A stretch of 40,768 nt of DNA from a virus. Below are positions 16,137 through 33,595 of this stretch, one piece after another; position 1 is the first letter of the stretch, and every line of letters begins with the position of its first letter. The notes beneath the pieces were generated by a model, which worked only from the letters and a program-made list of their open reading frames with translations, did no database searches and was not told the DNA's origin. The position numbers and the translations under genes are program-made. Where the stretch lies: the IMG/VR virus record IMGVR_UViG_3300043446_003752, positions 1 to 40,768 of that record; one strand, written 5' to 3'.

Positions 16137-16930
16137 CAGATATCGACCGGAGCCTGCGCCGCAGCCGTCAGGCTGTCCATCCTCGTCGCCCCCGCCACAT
16201 CCCGGCGCTCGGCGTCATACGCCCCCGACTCCGCGTGGTCCTTCGCCACCGCCGCCGGGTTGATCCCGCCCGAGGTGGTCGAGGACGAGTTCCCCTCCGC
16301 GTCGTACGTCGTCGTCGTCGTCTGCGGGCTGGCCGACGCCGCGCCGTTCATCGCCGCCAGGAACGCCTGCACCTCCGCGTCGGAGGCATCCCTGCCGACC
16401 GCGTCCTGCATCGCATTGTCCGCCGACACCTCCGCGTCGCCCTCGTTGAGCTGCTGCACCGACGTGGACGTCACCGTCCGCGGACCCGACGACGAGCCGC
16501 CCGAGGAGCCGCCGCCGGCGGTCGGGTCGCCGCCCGCCGCCACGATCGCCATCGCCTTGTCGAACCACGCCCACACGTTCCCGCCGTCCTGCGTCTGCGA
16601 CACCGCGTAGTCCCACAGATCCTTCGCCGACGTCCACTTCCCCGACTGCGTCGAGGGGTTCCGCAGGATCGTCATCCACTGCTGCACCGCCGTGCGCTCG
16701 GACTCCTTCAGGTCCCAGAACGCCCGCTGCGCCACGTCGGCGTCCATCCGGTCGGCGCCGTGGATCACCCCGCCGTCGGTGTACGTCCCCGTCCGCGGGT
16801 CGTAGTAGCGGAACGACGACGACGGACCCAGCGTCACCTGCCGCTTCGGCTGCACGGCGGCGGCGCCCGCCGAACCGCCCTCCCCGCCGGCAGCCTCCTT
16901 GAGGACGTCGTTCTGATTCGGATCAGCCAT
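16136..16930 (-). CDS. Virion protein carrying RYYDPRTGTY motif
   Basis: A 264-residue, Ala/Gly/Ser-rich and acidic protein. Residues ~38-52 contain SFRYYDPRTGTYTDGG, nearly the same as the first residues of the giant protein encoded next to it (SPFRYYDPRTGTYQGG). The middle has WTSAKDLWDYAVSQ and WFDKAMAIVAAGG; the rest is low complexity with TTTTTYDAEGNSSSTTSGG. It overlaps the end of the giant gene by eight bases. The shared motif suggests both proteins dock on the same partner, perhaps portal or core. No enzyme signature. Confidence 0.6.
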   Translation of the reverse strand: MADPNQNDVLKEAAGGEGGSAGAAAVQPKRQVTLGPSSSFRYYDPRTGTYTDGGVIHGADRMDADVAQRAFWDLKESERTAVQQWMTILRNPSTQSGKWTSAKDLWDYAVSQTQDGGNVWAWFDKAMAIVAAGGDPTAGGGSSGGSSSGPRTVTSTSVQQLNEGDAEVSADNAMQDAVGRDASDAEVQAFLAAMNGAASASPQTTTTTYDAEGNSSSTTSGGINPAAVAKDHAESGAYDAERRDVAGATRMDSLTAAAQAPVDI

Positions 16931-19900
16931 CGCTCTTCCCCTTCTGCGCCGTCACCAGCAGCGAATCGCGGAACATCTGGTACGCATCCGTCGTTCCCAT
17001 CTGCGGCAGGATCACCGCGCGGACGTAGTTGATCACGTTCTGCTGGTAGTCGGGAGCCGTCTCCGCGACCGTCCTCGCGAACAGCCTCACCGAGGCGCGG
17101 TGGACGTCAGTCTGCGTCATCGGGCGCATCTGCCCGGGACGCTTCTCGTCGGGCACCAGCGGCGCCTGGCCCTGCTTGATCAGGAGCACAGCCGAGGCGT
17201 CGTCGCCGATCAGCTTGTTCACCCGCTTGAACGCGGCCTCATGCGGCCACAGCTCCCGGCCCCTCTCCTCCTTGCGGGCCACCCACGCATCGACCTGCGA
17301 CATCAGCGTCACCGGGGACGCCGGGACCCTGCCCTCGTCGGAGGTGGTGTTGCGGAGCCACTCGTCCAGCTCCTTGTTGCCCGCGCGCATCTCCGCCTTC
17401 CTCCTGCGCCCGATCTCGTCAACCCTGTTCGGGTTGATCCCCAGCGACGGGGCCATCGCGCGGGCCTCGGCGATCTGCTGCGACAGCTCGAACCACTCCC
17501 CGACCCGCGTCGCCACGTTCAGGGCGTCGCGGTACTCGCCGAACCCCTTCGGCACCTTCGCCCCGATCCGCCTCGCCTCCGTGTTCGCCGGGAAGTAGTA
17601 CTCCTCCCCCGCCTGTGCCGGGATCAGGAACGGCAGCGCCATGTTCGACCTGCCCGCCTCGATCATCGAGGCGTGGTCGTGCATCCACGCCGCCGACTGC
17701 TTCGTCGCCGCGGGGCGCGCACCCGGCTGGGACGGCTTGTTCACCGACTCCTGGAGCAGCGGCAGCTGCGGGAACAGCTTCGAGAACTCAGCCGTCGCCG
17801 TGCCGAAGGCGTTCACGTCGCCCTCCGCCGTCAGCTCCCGCACCCGCGCCGCGAACACCGGGTTCAGCGTCACCCCGGCGAGGTTCTCGTAGTCGGTGCG
17901 CGGCAGCTCGACCTGCGGCGACGCCGGCAGCAGGAACCGCAGCAGGTAGCGCATCGTCATCATGTTCCGCGCCGCCGCGTACACCCCCGCCTCGCGGTCG
18001 GCCTGCGCCTCCGCGTCCATCATCCCCGGCTGCGCGTACCCGTTCTGCAACCAGTCCGCGAGCGCAGCATCCTTCGCGATCCGCATCTGCATCTCCCGGC
18101 GCTGCTCCGGGGTGCGGACCATCCACGCCTCCGCGACGCCGTCCGGGCCGAGGAGCTGGAGCAGCGGCGTCGGGATCGTCTGCTCCATCAGCGACCGGCC
18201 CTGCGACATCCGCCCGAGGAAGAAGCCCTCGTTGTCGCGGAAGAACTGGCCCACCCCGCCCGTCGCCCCGTCGAAGCCGGGGGCGTTCTTCAGGCCCGCG
18301 TAGGCGAACGCCGCCAGCGGACCCGACAGCGTCGGCACCCAGCCCGCCGCGTCCAGCGACGGCGACAGCATGCTGTACTGCCCGGTCAGGTTCAGGTCGA
18401 TGTCCTGCGGCACCGACACCCCGAGCAGGTTCGACACCTGCTGGAAGACCGCGTTCACGCCCGAGTACACGAAGTACTCGTTGCCCTGGTCGTCCTTCGC
18501 CGACCCGCCCGCGTCCGAGAGCAGGTCGTAGGCCAGCGCCATCTTGTACACGCCCTGCGGGTGGTAGCGGCCCATCCGCATGGCGCGGCGGTAGAAGTCC
18601 TCCGTGGCCCGGTAGAACCGCGCCAGGTTGCGGAGGTGGTAGGCGGCGGTCGTCCGCATCGCCGGGTTGTCCGCCATCATCATCGTCGAAGCCATGCCGT
18701 GGTGCTGCGCCCACTCGACCACATGCGCGGCAGCGGCCTTGCGGGCCTGCTGCGCCACCTCGTCGGCCTCGTCGGCGTCCAGCGACATCGCCGACCGCAG
18801 GCGGACCACCTCGTCCTCATGGAGCTGGTTGATCGCCTTCAGCCGGTAGTTGCCCTGGTTCAGCGGGTGCGCCTGCGCCCACGGGCGCACGTCGGTCGGC
18901 GACGCGGGGACGATGGGGTCGGAGAAGTGCATCCCGAACCGGGCGTTCATGTCTCCCTCGGACGCGAGCGCGTAGCGCAGCCGCTGCGGCACCCGGCGGG
19001 TGCCCTGCGCCCTGCCGTGCTTGCGCCGCAGGTCCTCGATCCGCTTCGCCCGGGCGCGCTGCGCCGGGGTCATGTCGGCCTGAGCCTCCACCATCCGCTG
19101 CCGGTGCTGCCACCCGTTGCTGCGGAACGCCTTGTGCAGCCTGCCGCTGACATCCCGCTGCACATGCACGACGGCCTCCGGCGGCACCGGGCCGTCGATC
19201 TCCACCTCGTTGCGGGAGTTGATGCGGACCCTGCCCTTCAAAGCCGGATGGTTCACGTCGAACACCACCAGCGCGCCCTTGCGACCGGGGGCGCCGTGCC
19301 CCGGCTGGTCGATGGTTCCCGCGGCGTCCGGGTGGTTCCTCGCGTTCACGCCGGGGTTCTCGTTGGCGTAGTGGCGCGCCGACAGCACCGAGTTCATCGG
19401 GGCGCCGCCGTGGTGCGACGGGGAGTCCAGCATCGTCCCGAACACCACGTCGTCGCCGTCCGGGTGGCCGTGGCCCGCCGGCGGCGGGGTGATGCCCTTC
19501 CTCCGCAGGCTCTTGAGGTCCCCGCCGTAGGAGCCGTGGATCGCCAGACCGCCGCCGTGCTCCTCGTTCAGCTTCGCCAGGAAGTCGTACAGGTCGCGGG
19601 GGATGCCGTCCTCGGGGACGTCCAGACCCTCGACGCGCGACTGGCCCTGCCGCAGCCTGGCGCGCTGCGCGTCCGTCGCGGGCGTCCCGCCCGGCAGCGG
19701 CTCGCTGTCGAACTCCACCGCCCGGTACTCCGGGGGCAGGTCGCGGTTCGGCGACAGGATCGCATGCACCTTCTGGATGGCCGGGTGCTTCAGCACATCC
19801 GGGTCGTCCATCAGCTCGCGGGAGGCGATGTGCCCGATCCGCGACCGCAGGTCCGCCTTCTGCTCCTCGAACGCCCGCAGCATCTCGTCGTGCGACACCG

Positions 19901-22900
19901 GGACCGCGTCCCGCGTCCGCGCCGAGCGCGGCAGGAACTCCCCGCGGGACGGGGAGAACACCCAGTCCACGTTGCCGTCCTTCAGCTCCCGCCGCAGGAA
20001 CGTGACGTAGTCCACCGCGTCGGCGACGGTCTTCCCCCGCCACACCATCGGCATCGCCTCGACCGAGCCGCCGTCCGGGACCGCGCTGGAGTACTCGTCC
20101 CACCAGTCGTTGATGCCCTGCTCGATCCGCTCGCGGGCCTGCGACGCCTGCGCGTGCAGCTTCGCCGCCTGCGCCTGCCCCTCGATGTCCCCGCGCAGCA
20201 GCGCCGCGATCATGTCCTCCGCCGGCTTCGCGATCGCATAGGCGTTCATCGAGTTCGCGTGGAAGATCGGAAGCCGCGACATCCGCGAGTTCATCATGCC
20301 CATGTGCCGCCAGAACTCGTCCGACACCGCCAGCCGGCGGTCGCCCAGCCCGATCAGGTGCGAGAACTCCCGCTCCATCGTCCGACCCAGAACCCACGGC
20401 GGGTTCTCCGCGCCCTTGTCGGCGAACATCGCCAGGATGTCGGACTCCTTGACGTTGTCCACCAGGTCGCCGTCGGAGTTCCGGTAGATCGCCGCGTACG
20501 AGTTCCGCTCCGGCACCCACAGCTTGTCCAGCAGCGCCTTGTTCGGCATCAGCCCCGACGAGTCCGACAGGTTGTGGGCCAGGGACGCGAAGTACCGCTC
20601 CGCGAACTCCCGCGGCGACGACGCCGCGACCATGTCGTCGGCCCAGCCCTTGAACCCCTCGTACGGGCCGAGGGAGTCGAAGCCGCCCTCCGCGAACGCC
20701 TTCCGGGTCGCGTCCTCGTTCAGGGCGCGCACCAGCCTCGGGACCGCGTCCTGGTACGCCTGGGCGACCGTGGGGTGGCGGTGCAGCGACTTCGCCACGA
20801 TCTGCGCCAGCGGGCCGTCCTGGAGGAAGATGCTCTGCAACGAGTGGTGCAGCGCGCCGGCGGCATCCTCGGCGCGGCTGGCAGGGATGTTCTGGAAGCC
20901 CTTCACGACGTCCTGGCCGTCGTCGAAGAAGCGCCAGCCCGAGCCTGCGCCCTTCTCCGAGGACAGCAGCGCCTTCGGGTCGCCCTCGAACTGCCCCGAC
21001 ATCCCCAGCCGCACCGAGTCGGCGACCTCGTCGGCCACCGACGCGGAGAACCGGGTGTACGCCGCGCGGACGTAGTCCTCGTCCATCGCCGACATCGACT
21101 TCCCCGCGAACATGCGGCGCATCACCGCGGCGTGCAGGAGCTGGCCGACCTTCTCCGAGTCGCCGGCGGCGAACCAGCCCTGCGCCACCTTCACCTCGTC
21201 CTCGTTCAGGTACGGCAGCACCGAGCGCCGCCACCACGAACGGGCCATCACCTCGGGTGCGATGTTGCCGTCCGCGTCCAGGAGCCGCTCCGTGTCCTTC
21301 GCCGCGGCGGCGCGGGACCGGGACTCCGTCATCACCAGCCCCATCTTCTTCCCCGACCGGAGGTCCTTGCCCCGCTTGCGGAGCGGACCCGTCGAGGCGC
21401 CGAGCATCTCCAGCTGCGAGTGCGCGACGGCGCGGCCCTTCATCGCGTCCGACATGCTCCCGCCCGCGGCGAGGTGGAACGCCCACTCCTCCAGGCTGTT
21501 GCGGAGCGCGAACCGGGGGCCGGCGAGGACGCCGAGGGACCACAGGTTCGTCGCCGTCGCGGCGGGCCGCGACCACGTCATCCCGATCAGGGAGTGCAGC
21601 ACCCCCACCCGCGTCGAGTAGCGGTTCAGCAGCTCCATGTCGGGCATCCTCACCCGCTGCGAGGTCTGGTAGCGGTGCAGCGCGTAGTGCTTCCCGCCGA
21701 CCAGCGACGGCGACCAGAACGGGTTCGACTCGTCGATCAGGTACGGGGTGCCGTCCTTCGCGAGCGCCTTCGCCGCCTTCCGCTCCTCGACCAGCCCGCG
21801 GATCTCCCACGACGTCATCCCGGCGGCGCGGCGCAGGTCGGCCTGCTTGGCCCGCAGCGCATCGATGTCGGCGATGATCCCGCGGCGCTCCGCCGGGTCC
21901 ATGCGCTCCTTGGACAGGCGGCGCTTCAGGCGGGCGAGGTCGGCATCGGCGATCCGCATCTCCTTCGCCACCCGGGAGGCGTCGTCGGTCATCTCCAGGA
22001 ACGCCGCCCGCTGCGTCTCCGACCAGTCCCGGGCCAGCTCGGCCAGCTCGTCGGCGGCGATGCCGAACGTGTCCCGCAGCACCTGGTTGATGTCGCGCTT
22101 CAGTCCGCGCTGCTCCAGCCGGGAGTCGTCCCTGCCCATCCGCATCGCGTCCCGCGCGCCGTCGCGGGCCTGCTTCTTCGCGTCCTGCACGGCGGGACGG
22201 CCCTTCGCGTTCGAGGTCATCGCCGCGGCCATCGCCGGATCGGAGACATCCCCGCCCGTGGCGCGCGCCACCGCGTTGCCCATGTCCGACAGCGCCTGCT
22301 CGGCGGTCTGCCCGAGGGAGTTGATCTCCCCCCGGATCAGCTTCCCCGCGACGTCGTACGCCTCCCGCGACCTGTCGAACCCGTCATCGATCAGGGCCTT
22401 GGACTCGTCGGATGCGAGGCGGCGCAGGTCGCGCATCTCCGCCTGCGTCCCCGCCAGCGCCTGCCCCTGCAACAGGCGCGACTCCCGCTCGTTCGCCCGG
22501 ATGCCCTGGCGGGCGTCCTGGATCGCCTGCGTCGCAGCGTCCATCTCCGCGGAGATGCGGGCGATGTCGGCCTCCGCCGCACCCGACTGGCGGGCGGCGG
22601 CGATCCTGCGGCGCAGCTGGTCACGCAGCGCCCCGAGGGCGCGGACCTCGTCGGCGAGGGACTCGCGGCGGGTGATCAGCGACGCGATCCGCCCGCCGTA
22701 GGCCCTGACCGCGCCGTCGAACGTCGTGTCCTGGGGCGGGACGAACTGCTCGGGCCTGCCGTCCGCGTCCAGCTTCAGCGTGCCGTCGTCCTTCCTCGCC
22801 CCGGTCGGGGCGCCCATGTTGCGCGCCCGGTACTCCCCCTCGGAGATCAGGCTGGCCTGCGCGTTGGCGGGGAGCCTGCGATGGCCGAGGATGATGGGGG

Positions 22901-25262
22901 CGTACTGCTCGCCGTCCACATACGCCCTGACCAGGCGGTCGATCTCCTCGTCGCGGTTGGCGAAGCCGAGCATGTAGCCCTTCGCGTCCGCCATCGTGCG
23001 GATCATGCCCTCCCACATGCTGCGCCGCTGCGCCGGGGTGACCTCCATCCACGCCTGCCGCAGCAGCGCCGCGTGGCCCTTCGACGTGAACGTGCGCGCC
23101 AGCCGGTACACCACGTCGGAGTCGGCGGCGACGTCGTCGCCCTCGGTGGCGATGCCGCGCGTCGAGGCGGGATGCTGGGAGAACCATGCGCCGAACCTGT
23201 CGTAGGCGCGCGCGACCCTCTTCGGGGCGTAGGCCCGCAGCGGCTTCAGGCGCGGGGCGTCGGTGGCCTTCTCCAGCACGCCGACCAGAGGCTCCGACCC
23301 CGGCACCCCGCCGAGGACGCGGGCCGCTGTCTGCGAGTACCGGAACGTGTTCTGCTCGGTCGGCGCGAGGCCCTTCGCCCGCATCGTCGAGGTCAGCCCC
23401 TCCGTGCCCTGCTTCGCCGCGACGAACTCCGCCGACGGGTCAGGCCCGTACAGGGTGCCGATCATCCTCCCGGCGGTGTCCCAGCTCATCGCCCGCGAGC
23501 CGGCGAGGACGCGCTGCGCCTGCAACCGCGGCGCCGACAGGCGCGGGATCGTCTTCGTGATCAGCCCCGACCTGCCGAACATGATGTTCAGGACGCGGGT
23601 CTGGTCCTCCAGGTACGAGTACGCCCCCGAGGCGTCGCGAACCCCGGCCTTCGCCTGCCCGGGGACCTGGTGGACTGCCAGCTCCTCCAGGATGTCGGAG
23701 GTCTTCTCCCCGAACTGCGGCGACCACCGCTGCACGAACAGGGCGCGGGCCTTCGCCCGGTCCTGCATCTTCGGCGCGTCGAGGTACTTCGCCACGTCGG
23801 AGCCGACCTCGTCCCACAGCCTGGTCACCATGCGGCGGCGGTGCGCCCCCGCGAGTCCCTCGTTCGCGCTCTTGTAGAACAGCGACGAGATGTCGGCGGT
23901 CGGCCCGACCATCCGCTCCATCCCCCACATCGCGGCGCGGTAGGTCGTGAAGATCTTCCCGCCGATCAGGTAGGGGTCGGCGAACAGCGTGACGACGGTC
24001 GTGCCGAGGCCGGAAACCGCCGTGTACGACGACGTGCCCGCCGTCAGGCCGACCTCCGTCGCCAGCACGTCGCCGAACGAGCCGCCGTTCGACGACGAGA
24101 CGAGGTCGAGCAGCTCCTTCGCCGACTGGTGCCTGCCGTCATCGACGCCGTAGCCGCCGAACGCGGCGCGGATCAGGTCCTGCTCCTCCTGCGACCCGTT
24201 CGCGGACACCTCGGAGACGATCCGGGCGATCTCGGCGGCGGGGTTGTCCGACTGCGACGCCTGGTGGATGCGGACGGCGACGTCCACGGCCTGCGGCGAC
24301 CAGCGCGCCTTCGCGTCCTCGATCTGCCTCTGGAGCATCTGACCGGACTCGGTCTTCTTCCACGCCTCGCGCCAGGAGAGCGCCTTGGCGTCGTCCAGCG
24401 ACCCGACCTGCGTCACCGCGGTTCGGAGGGTGCGGTTCACCAGCTCGATGGGAACCTCGATGGCATCGACGGCAGCCTCGAACGGAGCCTTCACCATCTC
24501 CCATACGAGATCGCCGAAGCTCGGCTCCCCGCCATCGACGGGGATGTCCCCGCCGGGGGCCGTCTCCCGCTCCTTCAGCAGCTCCTCGAAGGCGCCGAGG
24601 CCGGCGAGCTGCACCGTCGGGGCGGACGCGAGGATCGCCCTCACGTCCTGCGGCAGGGCGCGGGACAGCTGCTCGTGCATCTGCGCGCCGCGGATCGCGC
24701 GGGCGATGTCCGACAGGGTCCTCGGGTCGGTGATCCCGGCGGCGAGGACGGCGGCGGCGACGGCGGGGGAGCGCATGATGATCGCGGGGAGGACGGGCGT
24801 GCCGCCCTGGCCCCCGACCGTGGGGTAGGCGGAGGGCTGGGCAGTCGCCGGGGATGCCGGGGGCATCCCGTGGACGCTCGGCATCGCCGTGCCGCCGACC
24901 TTGCCGCGGGTGTGGACGTAGTCGATCAGGGTGTCGATGGTCTCGCTGGAGAAGTCGCGGGCGTCGAAGTCCATCTGCGACGCGGCCTCGGGGGCGATCT
25001 GCCGGTTCAGCCTGTTCGCCTGCGCCCGGGAGGCGGCGACCGAGGCGACGAACCTGTCGGCCTTCGCCGGGTCGGCGTCGGCCTGCGCCCGCAGCGCCGG
25101 GGGCAGCAGCCCCAGGGTGGCCTCGCGGGCCTTGGCCTGCTGCGCGGCGATCATCGCCAGGCGCTGCTTCTCGTCCATCGGCTTCGGCCCCGCCGGGGCT
25201 GGGGTGCCGCCCTGATAGGTGCCGGTACGGGGGTCGTAGTAGCGGAACGGCGAGGCGGTCAA
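16923..25262 (-). CDS. Giant virion protein with ADP-ribosyltransferase-like region
   Basis: A 2,779-residue protein using one fifth of the genome. A TTG at 25262 overlaps the previous TGA, placing PFRYYDPRTGTY at residue ~5. A coiled coil spans about 840-960 (RRESLADEVRALGALRDQLR). Residues ~1885-2030 carry an ART-like H-Y-E pattern: H1909 in LAIHGSYGGDLKSLRRKGI, Y1965 in SARHYANENPG, and E2019/E2021 in NEVEIDGPVPPEAV, as in DarT/PARP-like folds. The remainder is helical with hydrophobic patches. It lies after the portal, where MuF or ejection proteins usually sit. Likely packaged and injected to modify a host target. T7/N4-type polymerase motifs were not seen. The gene call is firm; the ART call is moderate. 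Confidence 0.8.
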   Translation of the reverse strand: MTASPFRYYDPRTGTYQGGTPAPAGPKPMDEKQRLAMIAAQQAKAREATLGLLPPALRAQADADPAKADRFVASVAASRAQANRLNRQIAPEAASQMDFDARDFSSETIDTLIDYVHTRGKVGGTAMPSVHGMPPASPATAQPSAYPTVGGQGGTPVLPAIIMRSPAVAAAVLAAGITDPRTLSDIARAIRGAQMHEQLSRALPQDVRAILASAPTVQLAGLGAFEELLKERETAPGGDIPVDGGEPSFGDLVWEMVKAPFEAAVDAIEVPIELVNRTLRTAVTQVGSLDDAKALSWREAWKKTESGQMLQRQIEDAKARWSPQAVDVAVRIHQASQSDNPAAEIARIVSEVSANGSQEEQDLIRAAFGGYGVDDGRHQSAKELLDLVSSSNGGSFGDVLATEVGLTAGTSSYTAVSGLGTTVVTLFADPYLIGGKIFTTYRAAMWGMERMVGPTADISSLFYKSANEGLAGAHRRRMVTRLWDEVGSDVAKYLDAPKMQDRAKARALFVQRWSPQFGEKTSDILEELAVHQVPGQAKAGVRDASGAYSYLEDQTRVLNIMFGRSGLITKTIPRLSAPRLQAQRVLAGSRAMSWDTAGRMIGTLYGPDPSAEFVAAKQGTEGLTSTMRAKGLAPTEQNTFRYSQTAARVLGGVPGSEPLVGVLEKATDAPRLKPLRAYAPKRVARAYDRFGAWFSQHPASTRGIATEGDDVAADSDVVYRLARTFTSKGHAALLRQAWMEVTPAQRRSMWEGMIRTMADAKGYMLGFANRDEEIDRLVRAYVDGEQYAPIILGHRRLPANAQASLISEGEYRARNMGAPTGARKDDGTLKLDADGRPEQFVPPQDTTFDGAVRAYGGRIASLITRRESLADEVRALGALRDQLRRRIAAARQSGAAEADIARISAEMDAATQAIQDARQGIRANERESRLLQGQALAGTQAEMRDLRRLASDESKALIDDGFDRSREAYDVAGKLIRGEINSLGQTAEQALSDMGNAVARATGGDVSDPAMAAAMTSNAKGRPAVQDAKKQARDGARDAMRMGRDDSRLEQRGLKRDINQVLRDTFGIAADELAELARDWSETQRAAFLEMTDDASRVAKEMRIADADLARLKRRLSKERMDPAERRGIIADIDALRAKQADLRRAAGMTSWEIRGLVEERKAAKALAKDGTPYLIDESNPFWSPSLVGGKHYALHRYQTSQRVRMPDMELLNRYSTRVGVLHSLIGMTWSRPAATATNLWSLGVLAGPRFALRNSLEEWAFHLAAGGSMSDAMKGRAVAHSQLEMLGASTGPLRKRGKDLRSGKKMGLVMTESRSRAAAAKDTERLLDADGNIAPEVMARSWWRRSVLPYLNEDEVKVAQGWFAAGDSEKVGQLLHAAVMRRMFAGKSMSAMDEDYVRAAYTRFSASVADEVADSVRLGMSGQFEGDPKALLSSEKGAGSGWRFFDDGQDVVKGFQNIPASRAEDAAGALHHSLQSIFLQDGPLAQIVAKSLHRHPTVAQAYQDAVPRLVRALNEDATRKAFAEGGFDSLGPYEGFKGWADDMVAASSPREFAERYFASLAHNLSDSSGLMPNKALLDKLWVPERNSYAAIYRNSDGDLVDNVKESDILAMFADKGAENPPWVLGRTMEREFSHLIGLGDRRLAVSDEFWRHMGMMNSRMSRLPIFHANSMNAYAIAKPAEDMIAALLRGDIEGQAQAAKLHAQASQARERIEQGINDWWDEYSSAVPDGGSVEAMPMVWRGKTVADAVDYVTFLRRELKDGNVDWVFSPSRGEFLPRSARTRDAVPVSHDEMLRAFEEQKADLRSRIGHIASRELMDDPDVLKHPAIQKVHAILSPNRDLPPEYRAVEFDSEPLPGGTPATDAQRARLRQGQSRVEGLDVPEDGIPRDLYDFLAKLNEEHGGGLAIHGSYGGDLKSLRRKGITPPPAGHGHPDGDDVVFGTMLDSPSHHGGAPMNSVLSARHYANENPGVNARNHPDAAGTIDQPGHGAPGRKGALVVFDVNHPALKGRVRINSRNEVEIDGPVPPEAVVHVQRDVSGRLHKAFRSNGWQHRQRMVEAQADMTPAQRARAKRIEDLRRKHGRAQGTRRVPQRLRYALASEGDMNARFGMHFSDPIVPASPTDVRPWAQAHPLNQGNYRLKAINQLHEDEVVRLRSAMSLDADEADEVAQQARKAAAAHVVEWAQHHGMASTMMMADNPAMRTTAAYHLRNLARFYRATEDFYRRAMRMGRYHPQGVYKMALAYDLLSDAGGSAKDDQGNEYFVYSGVNAVFQQVSNLLGVSVPQDIDLNLTGQYSMLSPSLDAAGWVPTLSGPLAAFAYAGLKNAPGFDGATGGVGQFFRDNEGFFLGRMSQGRSLMEQTIPTPLLQLLGPDGVAEAWMVRTPEQRREMQMRIAKDAALADWLQNGYAQPGMMDAEAQADREAGVYAAARNMMTMRYLLRFLLPASPQVELPRTDYENLAGVTLNPVFAARVRELTAEGDVNAFGTATAEFSKLFPQLPLLQESVNKPSQPGARPAATKQSAAWMHDHASMIEAGRSNMALPFLIPAQAGEEYYFPANTEARRIGAKVPKGFGEYRDALNVATRVGEWFELSQQIAEARAMAPSLGINPNRVDEIGRRRKAEMRAGNKELDEWLRNTTSDEGRVPASPVTLMSQVDAWVARKEERGRELWPHEAAFKRVNKLIGDDASAVLLIKQGQAPLVPDEKRPGQMRPMTQTDVHRASVRLFARTVAETAPDYQQNVINYVRAVILPQMGTTDAYQMFRDSLLVTAQKGKSDG

Positions 25263-25681
25263 CGGCCCGCCCCCCTCGCCCACGCGGCGATGGCGGCGAT
25301 CTGCGGGTCCCCGGACTGCGCCGCGAGGCGGGTCAGCACGTCGGACACGCGCGGACGGCCCACGCCGGGGAGCGCCTCCGTGCCCGGTCCCGCGCCGAGG
25401 GCGGCGCCGGCGGTCACCGGCTCGTCCGGTCGCCCCGTCGGGGCGAACAGGTCCATCTGCGGCGGCGGCTGCGGAGCCGCCATCGGGGCTGCGGGGGCCT
25501 GCTGCGGCGAAGCCGCCATCGGCGCGCCGGACTGCACCTCGGCCATCTCGGTGCGCTCCCCGTACTCCCCGCCCGGCATCGGCACGGGGGCCTGCCTGCC
25601 GCCGGGTCCGCCGTCGGTGCGGCGGGAGAAGCGGCCCGGGCCTGACACGGGAGCGGGGTTCGAGGGCGGCTGGTACGCCAA
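25259..25681 (-). CDS. Pro/Ala-rich protein after portal
   Basis: A 140-residue, low-complexity protein with PAPVSGPGRFSRRTDGGPGG near the start and a small ordered C-terminus (VSDVLTRLAAQSGDPQIAAI). It begins at TTG 25681 with AGGAGG five bases upstream, which fixes the start. I recall the SGPG..SRRTDGGP signature from actinophage proteins encoded next to portals. Probably a flexible virion or assembly protein; its end is coupled to the giant gene by a TTGA overlap. Confidence 0.6.
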   Translation of the reverse strand: MAYQPPSNPAPVSGPGRFSRRTDGGPGGRQAPVPMPGGEYGERTEMAEVQSGAPMAASPQQAPAAPMAAPQPPPQMDLFAPTGRPDEPVTAGAALGAGPGTEALPGVGRPRVSDVLTRLAAQSGDPQIAAIAAWARGAGR

Positions 25682-29905: not shown

Positions 29906-30209
29906 GGGGGTTCGAGCATTAAACGAGAACCCCCTAAGCAGAAGGAATCCGGCCCAGAAAAGGCCGGATTCCTATAGGGGCAGAATTCAAAAAAGAATGC
30001 TCCGGCCCATAAAAGGCCGGAGCATATAGGGGCAGAATTAAATTGAATTCATCTCGTCATCGAATTCTTTTCAATTCACTGACGCGGTCGGTGAAATTCA
30101 ATTCTCAATTCCGCCGGCGAATTCCATAAAAGAATTCGCCCTCAGGATTAATTCAATTCATCAATTCAATTACGAATTCAATTCACCGCCGCCCCATGAA
30201 AGGGCGGCG
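29906..30209 (+). promoter_or_regulatory. Array of five stem-loops with 7-nt CANNAAA loops
   Basis: Stems and loops: 29906-29934 (GGGGGTTC arms, tandem GA mismatch, loop CATTAAA); 29943-29973 (12 bp, CAGAAAA); 29997-30025 (11 bp, CATAAAA); 30116-30140 (9 bp, CATAAAA); 30187-30209 (8 bp, CATGAAA). The stems differ in sequence while the loop is kept, the signature of a loop-reading RNA- or DNA-binding factor. Stems 2 and 3 are each followed by the identical ATAGGGGCAGAATT; stem 5 is followed by AGAGGGGCAGA and ATG 30223. On the minus strand stem 3 is followed by six T, so a leftward terminator is a second reading. Confidence 0.7.
29983..30184. repeat. AT-rich island with AATTC repeats
   Basis: Fourteen AATTC words occur in about 200 bases, six of them as GAATTC (29983, 30045, 30062, 30119, 30132, 30174). 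The stretch is conspicuously AT-rich in an otherwise very GC-rich genome and has no credible gene. It is interleaved with the heptaloop hairpins. DNA-unwinding element or iterons of a replication origin is the leading inference. Confidence 0.65.
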
Positions 30210-31204: not shown

Positions 31205-31227
31205 GCTAGCCGCCGACCACGGCTAGC
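31205..31227 (+). promoter_or_regulatory. Leader stem-loop 1, loop CCGACCA
   Basis: A perfect 8-base stem GCTAGCCG/CGGCTAGC with 7-nt loop CCGACCA, 26 bases before ATG 31254. First of five related leader hairpins. Confidence 0.6.
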
Positions 31228-31253: not shown

Positions 31254-31394
31254 ATGTGCGATTGCTGCGACACCCGCAACGGTTCCTACCGCTATGACTA
31301 CTCAAGCGTGCTCTGCGCCGCTTGCTACCTTGAGCCGTTCGATGGCCCTGATGGCGACACCGTCTATCCGTCCTGCCCCACCTGCACCCGCTAG
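31254..31394 (+). CDS. 46-residue zinc-ribbon microprotein
   Basis: ATG 31254 opens a 46-codon frame ending TAG at 31394. It holds Cys at 2, 4, 5, 21, 24, 41 and 44, including the pairs CAAC and CPTC and a start MCDCCDTRNGSYRYDYSS, the design of a small zinc ribbon. It follows a leader stem-loop and precedes the GP88-like gene by 22 bases. The Cys spacing makes chance coding unlikely. It could bind nucleic acid or a host protein. Confidence 0.7.
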   Translation: MCDCCDTRNGSYRYDYSSVLCAACYLEPFDGPDGDTVYPSCPTCTR

Positions 31395-31406
31395 ACCCGA
31401 CACTAG
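31391..31406 (+). promoter_or_regulatory. Leader stem-loop 2, loop ACCCGACA
   Basis: A short CTAG/CTAG stem encloses ACCCGACA and is followed at once by GAGACC and ATG 31417. It starts within the TAG stop of the 46-residue gene. Weak as a stem, included because its loop and position match the other leaders. Confidence 0.4.
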
Positions 31407-31416
31407 GAGACCTGCC

Positions 31417-32373
31417 ATGACTTCCCTTGTCACCCTTGACATGCTCGACGCGCCTATCCCCTGCCGAATCGTCAAGCAGGCCCCCGTTCGGGTGCCTAGC
31501 CTCACCAAGCCGGAACGGCTTCTGGCCCCTGCCGATGGATCCGCCATCCGCTACCTGTCCGCAGACTGCGCCACGCGTCGAGTGATGCTCTCCGAAGCGC
31601 GGAAGGTGTGGGCGCAGTTTCGCGAGTCCCACGGCTTCAAGCGTGACGCGCGGCCGCTGCTGACGCCTCCCACGGCTCAGGCCAAATTGGCGAAGAGCGC
31701 CGTTCCCACGTTCGGCCTGTCACTGGTGCCGGGCGCCGCTTCGGGCTTCAACCTGTGCCCGGCCGCGTCGCGCGGCTGCCTCGGCGCATGCCTGCACACA
31801 AGCGGCAAGGGCCGCTTGGGAAGTGTGCGCTTCGCGCGTTGGGTGAGGGCGCAGTTTGCCCTCACCCATCCGGCAGAGTTCGGGATCATCCTGGTCGGTG
31901 AGCTGATCAGGCACGCGACCGTCAAGGGTGCCATTCGCGTCCGGCTCAACGTGGTGAGTGACGTGCGTTGGGCGCACGTCATGCCCGAGACTCTCTCGGC
32001 GCTCAAGGCGCTGGGCGTAGTCGCCTATGACTACACCAAGTACAGTCCCCGGCTCTACGCGCGGAATGACCTTGTCCACCTCACGCGGTCGGCCAGTGAG
32101 AGAATGTCGGACGCCGACATCATCGAGCTGGTGAATTCCGGCGAGAATGTCGCGGTGGTGTTCGCTGCTAGCAAGCGCGTGGTCAAGCGCGCGTGTGCGG
32201 ACGGCCTCACCTGGCACGGCATCCGGCTTGTGGACGGCCTCTCTACCGATGATCGGACCCTAGACCCTACGGGTTGCATCGTGGCCCTGGCCGCACTCGG
32301 CGACGGTGTCGGGGACAGCTCCGGCTTCGTCCGCCCGTGGGCGCCCGACACCGCTACCCTGCCGATGATCTAG
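31417..32373 (+). CDS. GP88-like phage protein
   Basis: A 318-residue protein resembling the phage gene-product-88 (GP88) family, whose function is unsettled. Visible marks are a Cys cluster near residues 112-123 (CPAASRGCLGAC, i.e. C-x6-C-x3-C), a RVRLNVVSDVRWAHVMPETL segment near 175, and the VVAYDYTKYSPRL stretch near 205. The Cys cluster may hold an Fe-S centre or zinc. ATG 31417 follows the leader motif closely. Codon use is less GC-extreme than in the structural genes, hinting at separate origin. It leads a set of small genes whose leaders share RNA elements. Confidence 0.65.
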   Translation: MTSLVTLDMLDAPIPCRIVKQAPVRVPSLTKPERLLAPADGSAIRYLSADCATRRVMLSEARKVWAQFRESHGFKRDARPLLTPPTAQAKLAKSAVPTFGLSLVPGAASGFNLCPAASRGCLGACLHTSGKGRLGSVRFARWVRAQFALTHPAEFGIILVGELIRHATVKGAIRVRLNVVSDVRWAHVMPETLSALKALGVVAYDYTKYSPRLYARNDLVHLTRSASERMSDADIIELVNSGENVAVVFAASKRVVKRACADGLTWHGIRLVDGLSTDDRTLDPTGCIVALAALGDGVGDSSGFVRPWAPDTATLPMI

Positions 32374-32381
32374 GCAACCCC

Positions 32382-32408
32382 GGCAGGGGGTCGCATTGGC
32401 CCCCTGCC
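32382..32408 (+). terminator. Stem-loop after GP88-like gene
   Basis: A perfect 9-base stem GGCAGGGGG/CCCCCTGCC with 9-base loop begins eight bases after the stop. No T run, so either an attenuator or 3'-end protection. A second 6-base stem (32426-32444, loop TACCCAG) follows. Confidence 0.55.
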
Positions 32409-32474
32409 ACCACTCAAAGCCATGCACGCGCTACCCAGGCGCGTCACCTAGACCCGTGATCTAGGCATGGCACG

Positions 32475-32493
32475 GGCGCCCCGACAGGGCGCC
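32475..32493 (+). promoter_or_regulatory. Leader stem-loop 3, loop CGACA
   Basis: GGCGCCC/GGGCGCC 7-base stem with loop CGACA, 33 bases before ATG 32527. It is followed by CGACAC-type words and GAGAGAGACATC directly before the start. Confidence 0.6.
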
Positions 32494-32526
32494 GACACAG
32501 ACAACCGACACACTGAGAGAGACATC

Positions 32527-32841
32527 ATGCGAAACATCCGTTCCGAGGATTGCGGCAACGTCGATATCTTGAAATCCGAGCTGGCCACGCTGGCCCGCTG
32601 CCATGGCCAATGGGCACGGCGCGACCTGTCGCCGGGCGTCGCCGCCATCGTTGACAAGGTGGGCGCCGACGTCGAGTGGATCGCCGCTTTCATCGCCGAA
32701 TTCGAGCGCAGCGCACGGAAGAACAACACCGCTAGCCGCGTGGCCGCAGCTGACCGGATGGCAAGCGCGTGGGGCATGTTGAGAGCCGTTTCGGTGGCCT
32801 GGTTCGCCCATGACATCCAACTCTCGGACATCGGCGCCTAG
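32527..32841 (+). CDS. Hypothetical early protein
   Basis: A 104-residue helical protein (NVDILKSELATLARCHGQWA, VEWIAAFIAEFERSARKN). ATG 32527 is chosen over an upstream in-frame ATG (32467) because that one lies before the leader stem-loop and GAGAGAGAC ribosome site. Its UAG stop is the first base of a structured RNA element. No family recognised; likely one of a set of small host-takeover or regulatory genes. Confidence 0.65.
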   Translation: MRNIRSEDCGNVDILKSELATLARCHGQWARRDLSPGVAAIVDKVGADVEWIAAFIAEFERSARKNNTASRVAAADRMASAWGMLRAVSVAWFAHDIQLSDIGA

Positions 32842-32914
32842 CACGCGCCACCAGCTCCGGCTGACGTCCGCAGGGACGTCGTCACGGCTCACCACCGGGC
32901 CGGAGCACGCTAGG
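32837..32914 (+). ncRNA. Structured RNA element, copy 1
   Basis: Starts at the UAG stop of the previous gene with TAGCACGCGCCACC. Outer stem GCTCCGGC (32854-32861) with GCCGGAGC (32899-32906); inner stem GACGTCC (32863-32869) with GGACGTC (32874-32880) and loop GCAG; then an 18-base joining strand ending ACCGG. CCTAGC/GCTAGG (32837-32842, 32909-32914) may close it. Compared with copy 2 at 33169, base pairs change in compensating fashion while loop and joining strand stay the same. Confidence 0.75.
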
Positions 32915-32934
32915 AAACTAGTATCGTGCATAAC

Positions 32935-32963
32935 TTGACATGCATAACCGAACACTGTAGGTT
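32935..32963 (+). promoter_or_regulatory. Predicted promoter
   Basis: TTGACA (32935-32940) and TAGGTT (32958-32963) are 17 bases apart, a good actinobacterial sigma-70-type promoter. Direct repeats TGCATAAC (32928-32935 and 32941-32948) straddle the -35 box, suitable for an operator. It would drive the gene at 33010 and the operon beyond. Confidence 0.7.
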
Positions 32964-32970
32964 CTACATA

Positions 32971-32990
32971 TCGGACCCCGACAGGTCCGA
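32971..32990 (+). promoter_or_regulatory. Leader stem-loop 4, loop CCGACA
   Basis: TCGGACC/GGTCCGA 7-base stem with loop CCGACA, immediately after the predicted promoter and 19 bases before ATG 33010. AAGGAGACAG follows as ribosome site. Confidence 0.65.
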
Positions 32991-33009
32991 CCGACTAAGG
33001 AGACAGGCT

Positions 33010-33171
33010 ATGAACATCATCACCGAGGCATTCGAGACCGAGTCCGGATTCATCTTCCAGGCGTTCATCCCGGGCGACATGCCCGACGACATGCCGCTGG
33101 CCGAGGGCGTCGCCTGCGCCAGCGCCGCCGATGCCGTTGATTCGCTGCTGTCGGTGCTCGGCATCCGCTAG
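33010..33171 (+). CDS. 53-residue acidic early protein
   Basis: ATG 33010 is set by AAGGAGACAG just upstream. The product (53 residues, start MNIITEAFETESGFIFQAFI) is acidic, with a DMPDDMPLAEG segment and a helix ending VDSLLSVLGIR. It could be a small alpha/beta protein or DNA mimic. Its UAG stop begins the second copy of the structured RNA element. No family recognised. Confidence 0.65.
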   Translation: MNIITEAFETESGFIFQAFIPGDMPDDMPLAEGVACASAADAVDSLLSVLGIR

Positions 33172-33237
33172 CACGCGCCACCTGGCCCCCGCTGGCATCC
33201 GCAGGGATGCCGCCAAGGCTCGCTACCGGGCGGGGGC
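33169..33237 (+). ncRNA. Structured RNA element, copy 2
   Basis: Begins at the UAG stop with the same TAGCACGCGCCACC as copy 1. Outer stem GCCCCCGC (33185-33192) with GCGGGGGC (33230-33237); inner stem GGCATCC (33194-33200) with GGATGCC (33205-33211), loop GCAG; 18-base joining strand GCCAAGGCTCGCTACCGG. Two pairs in each stem differ from copy 1 and all four remain paired, good evidence for a selected RNA fold. Confidence 0.75.
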
Positions 33238-33239
33238 AC

Positions 33240-33260
33240 GGGCACCTGAGACAGGGTGCC
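33240..33260 (+). promoter_or_regulatory. Leader stem-loop 5, loop TGAGACAG
   Basis: GGCACC/GGTGCC stem (G-U extension) with loop TGAGACAG, two bases after RNA copy 2 and 32 bases before ATG 33293. Downstream come GACAGACTGACTGACAC and GGGAGACAG as in the other leaders. Confidence 0.55.
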
Positions 33261-33292
33261 TCGACAGACTGACTGACACATGGGAGACAGCA

Positions 33293-33595
33293 ATGATCGA
33301 CGGATTCGTGAGCCTCGACGTCACCGAGGCATGGTTCCCCGCACGGTTCACCGTGTCCCCCAACGGCATGGCCGAGCCTCGCCTCGACGATGCCGCGATG
33401 GGCCAGCTCCTGATGGCCCTGGTCGCGGTCAACCCCGACCAGCGCATGTTCCTCAAGCACGACATGGTGACGCTGGTCGATCCGATGTGGGAGGGCGGGC
33501 CGGAGACGGTGCGACGCGACGCCGATGGCATGTGGGACTTCTCCCAGCTCAACTGGTCGTGGTACCACACGACCGACGTGGCCGAGACGGCCTGA
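33293..33595 (+). CDS. Hypothetical early protein
   Basis: A 100-residue protein from ATG 33293, preceded by GGGAGACAG. It has an alternating beta/helix start (MIDGFVSLDVTEAWFPARFT), a helix AAMGQLLMALVAVN, and a Trp-rich end (FSQLNWSWYHTTDVAE). Not recognised. It shares the leader design of the preceding genes, so it is probably expressed with them. Confidence 0.65.
   Translation: MIDGFVSLDVTEAWFPARFTVSPNGMAEPRLDDAAMGQLLMALVAVNPDQRMFLKHDMVTLVDPMWEGGPETVRRDADGMWDFSQLNWSWYHTTDVAETA

Follow-up and report, generated by a model that had tools for sequence, protein, structure and literature searches.

A two-copy structured RNA element behind unrelated genes of a podovirus-like actinophage

The early messages of phage T7 are separated by RNase III at interrupted hairpins. 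Other repeated short elements in the gene spacers of actinophages are the start-associated sequences and stoperators of mycobacteriophages, which are sites in DNA, or short inverted repeats close to starts, and lack the fold of the element described here. Cleavage of R1.1 RNA takes place at a single bond (PMC4858673), and in S. coelicolor the intergenic hairpin of rpsO-pnp is cut by the actinobacterial RNase III at a [4/4] internal loop (PMC10126417). The put RNA of phage HK022 holds a minor-groove triplex, and putR is found ~270 nt after its transcription start (PMC9378689). Our element shares with the RNase III processing hairpins (the T7 R sites and Streptomyces rpsO-pnp) the position in a spacer and the succession of lower stem, unpaired interruption and upper stem; it differs from them in its 1/18 interruption, its 15-bp helix and a leader and loop that are shared in sequence, and its cleavage is putative. 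With HK022 putL and putR it has in common a length of ~70 nt and the presence of two similar copies in what would be phage early transcription units, but it is nested and lies behind genes whereas the put stem-loops are in tandem and near promoters.

The window, meaning the whole stretch of DNA that was analyzed (40,768 nt), is a 40.8-kb virus contig whose rightward genes include GP88, an exonuclease, a DnaB-like helicase and an HNH nuclease, and whose leftward genes include the portal, the major head protein, tail proteins and the terminase. The terminase is ~50% identical to that of ct2KA10 and 48-49% identical to those of Streptomyces phages such as WRightOn and Immanuel3, which are Beephvirinae by NCBI placement and the nearest cultured relatives by terminase. 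Beephvirinae-type Streptomyces phages include one of podovirus morphology, Abafar (PMC11536984), and the window is a podovirus-like actinophage. The elements lie within the first rightward cluster, GP88-A-B-C-D-E, ahead of the replication genes, and by analogy this cluster is probably an early operon. Its features around the elements are the following:

31417..32373, + strand, GP88-like gene, close to where the rightward cluster begins; the longer ORF 31294-32373 matches Pfam PF17338 (E 2e-22)
32527..32841, + strand, gene A, 104 aa, no known function; its last codon is the UAG of copy 1
32839..32909, + strand, structured element, copy 1, from the UAG stop of gene A through ACG
32839..32853, + strand, copy 1 UAG stop with single-stranded leader CACGCGCCACC and linker A; 14 nt are the same in both copies
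32854..32861, + strand, copy 1 P1 5' strand GCTCCGGC, partner 32899-32906
32863..32880, + strand, copy 1 P2 hairpin, 7 bp, loop GCAG at 32870-32873
32881..32898, + strand, copy 1 joining strand GTCACGGCTCACCACCGG, 14/18 positions common to copy 2
32899..32906, + strand, copy 1 P1 3' strand GCCGGAGC
32935..32963, + strand, possible promoter TTGACA-17-TAGGTT, 3' of copy 1 and 5' of gene B, read by eye and absent from the consensus-scan list
33010..33171, + strand, gene B, 53 aa, no known function; its last codon is the UAG of copy 2
33169..33240, + strand, structured element, copy 2, from the UAG stop of gene B through ACG
33185..33192, + strand, copy 2 P1 5' strand GCCCCCGC, partner 33230-33237
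33194..33211, + strand, copy 2 P2 hairpin, 7 bp, loop GCAG at 33201-33204
33212..33229, + strand, copy 2 joining strand GCCAAGGCTCGCTACCGG
33230..33237, + strand, copy 2 P1 3' strand GCGGGGGC
33293..33595, + strand, gene C, 100 aa, no known function, 3' of copy 2

Each copy consists, in order, of the leader UAGCACGCGCCACC, a linker, the 8 bp of P1, one unpaired U, the 7 bp of P2 with its GCAG loop, an 18-nt joining strand, the 3' strand of P1 and ACG. The leader is made up of the UAG and 11 further nt and is identical between the copies at 14/14 positions. The linker 5' of P1 is A (1 nt) in copy 1 and UG (2 nt) in copy 2, and this one base, directly before P1, is the sole length difference in the alignment of the copies. 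The preliminary description had the elements start at the UAG stops and fold into these two stems, which stands, but its limits had to be widened, for the likeness begins one base earlier (C) and runs three bases further (ACG, to 32909 and 33240). The ends of the likeness are sharp, at CTAG...ACG with GCACG at either end, and past the ACG the copies diverge immediately. Repeat families D1 (56 nt, 79%) and D11 (15 nt, 100%) were detected mechanically, and GCACGCGCCACC has exactly 2 occurrences in the record, with zero on the reverse strand and zero in the reversed control. The genes before the elements are indeed unrelated, as had been proposed, their two proteins giving no alignment at E <= 100. 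A protein-coding explanation of the repeat was rejected because the frame changes between the copies at the linker, and 6/12 frame readings hold the leading UAG or an internal stop. Nor do the copies look like an intrinsic terminator, there being no U run 3' of either copy and none listed on the + strand; no tRNA was found.

In both copies each of the 15 pairs is a standard one. The stem differences between the copies (8/8) sit in four pairs, each of them changed on both sides and still paired, and 0 pairs are broken, so that the duplicated structured RNA with compensatory changes of the preliminary description is borne out. Sliding the partners by 1-3 columns, as a control on the two-copy alignment, left just 0-1 doubly changed pairs. 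In simulation, 8 random changes among the 30 stem positions kept all 15 pairs intact in 0.10% of trials, and mutation of copy 1 at 12 random places produced at least 4 compensated pairs with none broken in 5e-6 of trials; a shuffle control of pair compensation gave 33/500 and has little power with two rows. The fold of copy 1 is significantly better than those of its shuffles (z -3.0, 0/200), and that of copy 2, which is very G+C rich, is not (z -0.75). Selection on the pairing is well supported, though from two sequences only. For the unpaired parts, the aligned 56-nt block has differences at 4/26 unpaired versus 8/30 stem positions, and two copies at 79% identity are weak evidence for kept loops. 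The claim that the joining strand is kept holds for GGCTC and ACCGG, its only constant parts, and not for the strand overall, in which 4/18 positions differ (22%, about the stem rate of 27%). Special conservation of the loops and joining strand is accordingly a weak suggestion; only the 14-nt leader stands out, mildly.

Rfam 15 returned 0 matches at the gathering threshold in the window and only chance matches at E 5-8, in keeping with the earlier view that no named RNA family has this form: even at E = 10 there was no plausible match. No third copy was found by five DNA-pattern scans (IMG/VR, GTDB genomes) or by the covariance model, R1, whose next best score after the copies across the window, with filters off, was 16 bits. 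IMG/VR loci with exact TAGCACGCGCCACC or CGCAGG..GGCTCNCNACCGG showed no such fold on reading, nor did the sites matching a three-part pattern in 84,980 genomes; for the IMG/VR patterns CGCGCCACC..CGCAG..GGCTC and CCGCAGGG..GGCTCNNNACCGG, the covariance model found nothing among the matches listed for the former or in the listed loci of the latter. On 80 terminase relatives R1 returned the window's own copies only, and on 396 actinobacterial genomes its two matches were weak (33 and 29 bits), lay over long open frames and were judged to be chance. A terminase search in 396 actinobacterial genomes yielded no prophage kin, and IMG/VR yielded no relatives via the GP88 or DnaB proteins, the DnaB query start probably lying too far upstream. 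In ct2KA10 there is no like element and no R1 match. Against the WRightOn spacers R1 had no match either (best E 0.31, inside the terminase gene), and blastn of copy 1 against plasmids and of copy 2 against phages gave short chance matches only. A close terminase relative (L167, 79%) stops 0.76 kb upstream of the terminase, short of the region of interest. These searches require a kept leader, a kept core or an already chosen locus, and divergent copies elsewhere could be missed. The preliminary description had staked its proposal on further homologues with covariation; the collections searched yielded none, so the case stands on two copies and does not demonstrate selection on a wider family. 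The element is a real, orphan, two-copy structured RNA of one phage, whose function we infer.

The reading that we prefer, tentatively and with somewhat less than even confidence, places the element between cistrons of the early operon as an RNA that most likely signals mRNA processing or 3'-end stability and that resembles RNase III sites in position. Both copies would be one cis-acting RNA element, sitting in the untranslated spacers of a polycistronic early mRNA right after the stop codon. A double-strand-specific RNase, for example host RNase III, would recognize the stacked stem of 8 bp and 7 bp with its 3'-side unpaired strand; by an alternative route, the stem would block 3'-5' decay. 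The outcome would be an upstream cistron with a defined, protected 3' end and a separate mRNA level for each cistron, which would explain separate levels of small early genes from one transcript. We infer the action as RNA rather than DNA, the transcription and the processing or stability role, the last because the position after stop codons, the polycistronic early-type cluster and the interrupted stems together fit a processing or 3'-protection role. Support for it also comes from compensated stems without any kept reading frame, in spacers behind two unrelated genes, and the promoter-like sequence after copy 1 possibly places that copy at the end of a transcript. The interrupted hairpins in the early spacers of the nearest cultured relatives, described below, and the RNase III cuts in T7 and Streptomyces named at the start also speak for it. 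Of the roles considered in the preliminary description, mRNA stability, here joined with processing, is the one we favor. Against RNase III, the 1/18 asymmetric interruption is far larger than in known signals and 15 pairs are short for the enzyme; a general double-strand nuclease, moreover, would not require the leader to be identical over 14 nt, nor GCAG, GGCTC and ACCGG to be kept. The very large one-sided interruption and the kept leader, which processing does not explain, leave room for protein binding or put-like action.

Such binding might be by a regulator of the phage or a factor of the host, recognizing the unpaired leader, the GCAG loop, GGCTC and ACCGG and controlling the early mRNA, a reading to which we give a minor share of belief. 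The unpaired stretches that are the same in both copies while the stems vary point this way, as do hairpins with CCGACA-type loops and different stems ahead of several early genes, which suggest an RNA-regulated operon; the counts above are, however, weak evidence for kept loops, and genes A-E showed none of the known RNA-binding domains. Somewhat less likely, but still a live rival, is an antitermination RNA that needs no protein and remains bound to RNA polymerase, as HK022 put RNA does, although the similar size and copy number per genome are joined here by the early cluster and a possible third strand beside the helix, and copy 2 would sit ~200 nt past the promoter-like site at 32935. The put RNA is two side-by-side stem-loops and our element a single interrupted, nested stem; copy 1 is far downstream of any upstream promoter, and one gene cluster holds both copies. 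If RNA polymerase is indeed their target, the elements would add a second kind to the protein-free antiterminators. We also keep in view, as unlikely but deserving some weight, an undescribed class of phage cis-acting RNA, a module that would travel with an early-gene stop codon and depend for its action on the unpaired leader and the joining strand; it might, for instance, modify RNA polymerase without a protein.

The sharp ends of the likeness, and the fact that compensation would preserve a DNA hairpin too, could be taken to indicate a DNA-level element, either a single-strand replication hairpin or a mobile repeat carrying a stop codon. We hold this to be improbable, as the copies are oriented as the genes, begin exactly at stop codons and number only two, and no transposase or origin signal was seen. 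The dense shared unpaired letters around two stacked helices would suit a small riboswitch or self-cleaving ribozyme, but the copies follow genes instead of preceding a metabolic gene, and among Rfam ribozymes and riboswitches there is no match at E <= 10, making this quite improbable. Least credible to us is a stimulator of UAG readthrough or of re-initiation, both raised in the preliminary description. The fold does start 12-13 nt past the UAG in both copies, but that distance is not kept (12 versus 13 nt), the readthrough extensions would be unrelated and end after ~23 and ~25 codons, and the next starts are 168 and 121 nt past the stop. Intrinsic termination, readthrough and re-initiation are all poorly supported as roles.

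Structured spacers are found elsewhere in this cluster. The fold scores of the spacers are z -3.9 for that of copy 1, -1.7 for that of copy 2 and -4.9 for the GP88-A spacer (32374-32529), which has a strong hairpin and a possible three-way junction; the latter (32419-32470, + strand) has GCCATG/CATGGC around two hairpins and contains GCACGCGCTACC, one letter off the element leader. Ahead of successive early genes on the + strand are hairpins with a (C)CCGAC(A)-like loop and differing stems (31205-31227, 31391-31406, 32475-32493, 32971-32990 and 33240-33261), followed by GACAGAC-type repeats and then the ribosome site. The loop is weaker in the hairpin at 33240-33261 (TGAGACAG).

The three Beephvirinae genomes that were read (WRightOn, Immanuel3 and FlowerPower) have an interrupted hairpin in most early spacers, in which unpaired bases separate a lower from an upper stem, and 11/12 pairs are doubly changed in an alignment of 10 sequences picked by hand. 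These hairpins resemble our element in belonging to related phages and in the kind of place, the interrupted stems and the compensated pairs. They differ in lacking sequence similarity to it, in their C(UUCG)G or C(UCCG)G loops and in interruptions that are short and mismatched, and are analogous in position, not homologous in sequence. In the early spacers of L285, L286 and L287, the hairpins with these loops are interrupted, show strong compensatory change and lie between unrelated early genes. A second, longer element of the Beephvirinae early region, UGAUCCAC(A/U)AUCUCA...CCAUGGAUCA, has a constant outer stem and flanking strands and a variable inner hairpin and appears RNA-like:

L285:42350-42408, L286:17690-17788 and L287:17455-17567, all - strand, UGAUCCAC...CCAUGGAUCA element, 59 to 113 nt in total

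No family reached the Rfam gathering threshold in its Immanuel3 and FlowerPower stretches, and sequence similar to its region occurs in 18 phage records. The early clusters of actinobacterial podoviruses appear full of structured intergenic RNA, none of which, among those scanned, is in Rfam.

Three further observations concern the genomes at large. In the closest terminase relative (79%; L167:764-3862), 684 residues are spread over ~3.1 kb, which hints at an inserted stretch of ~350 codons, perhaps an intein. In the window, a reading frame of ~2,900 codons without PHROG match (16923-25664, - strand) lies directly downstream of the portal gene, and the intergenic stretch between the divergent gene arms (30040-30190) is rich in repeated GAATTC/AATTCAATTC.
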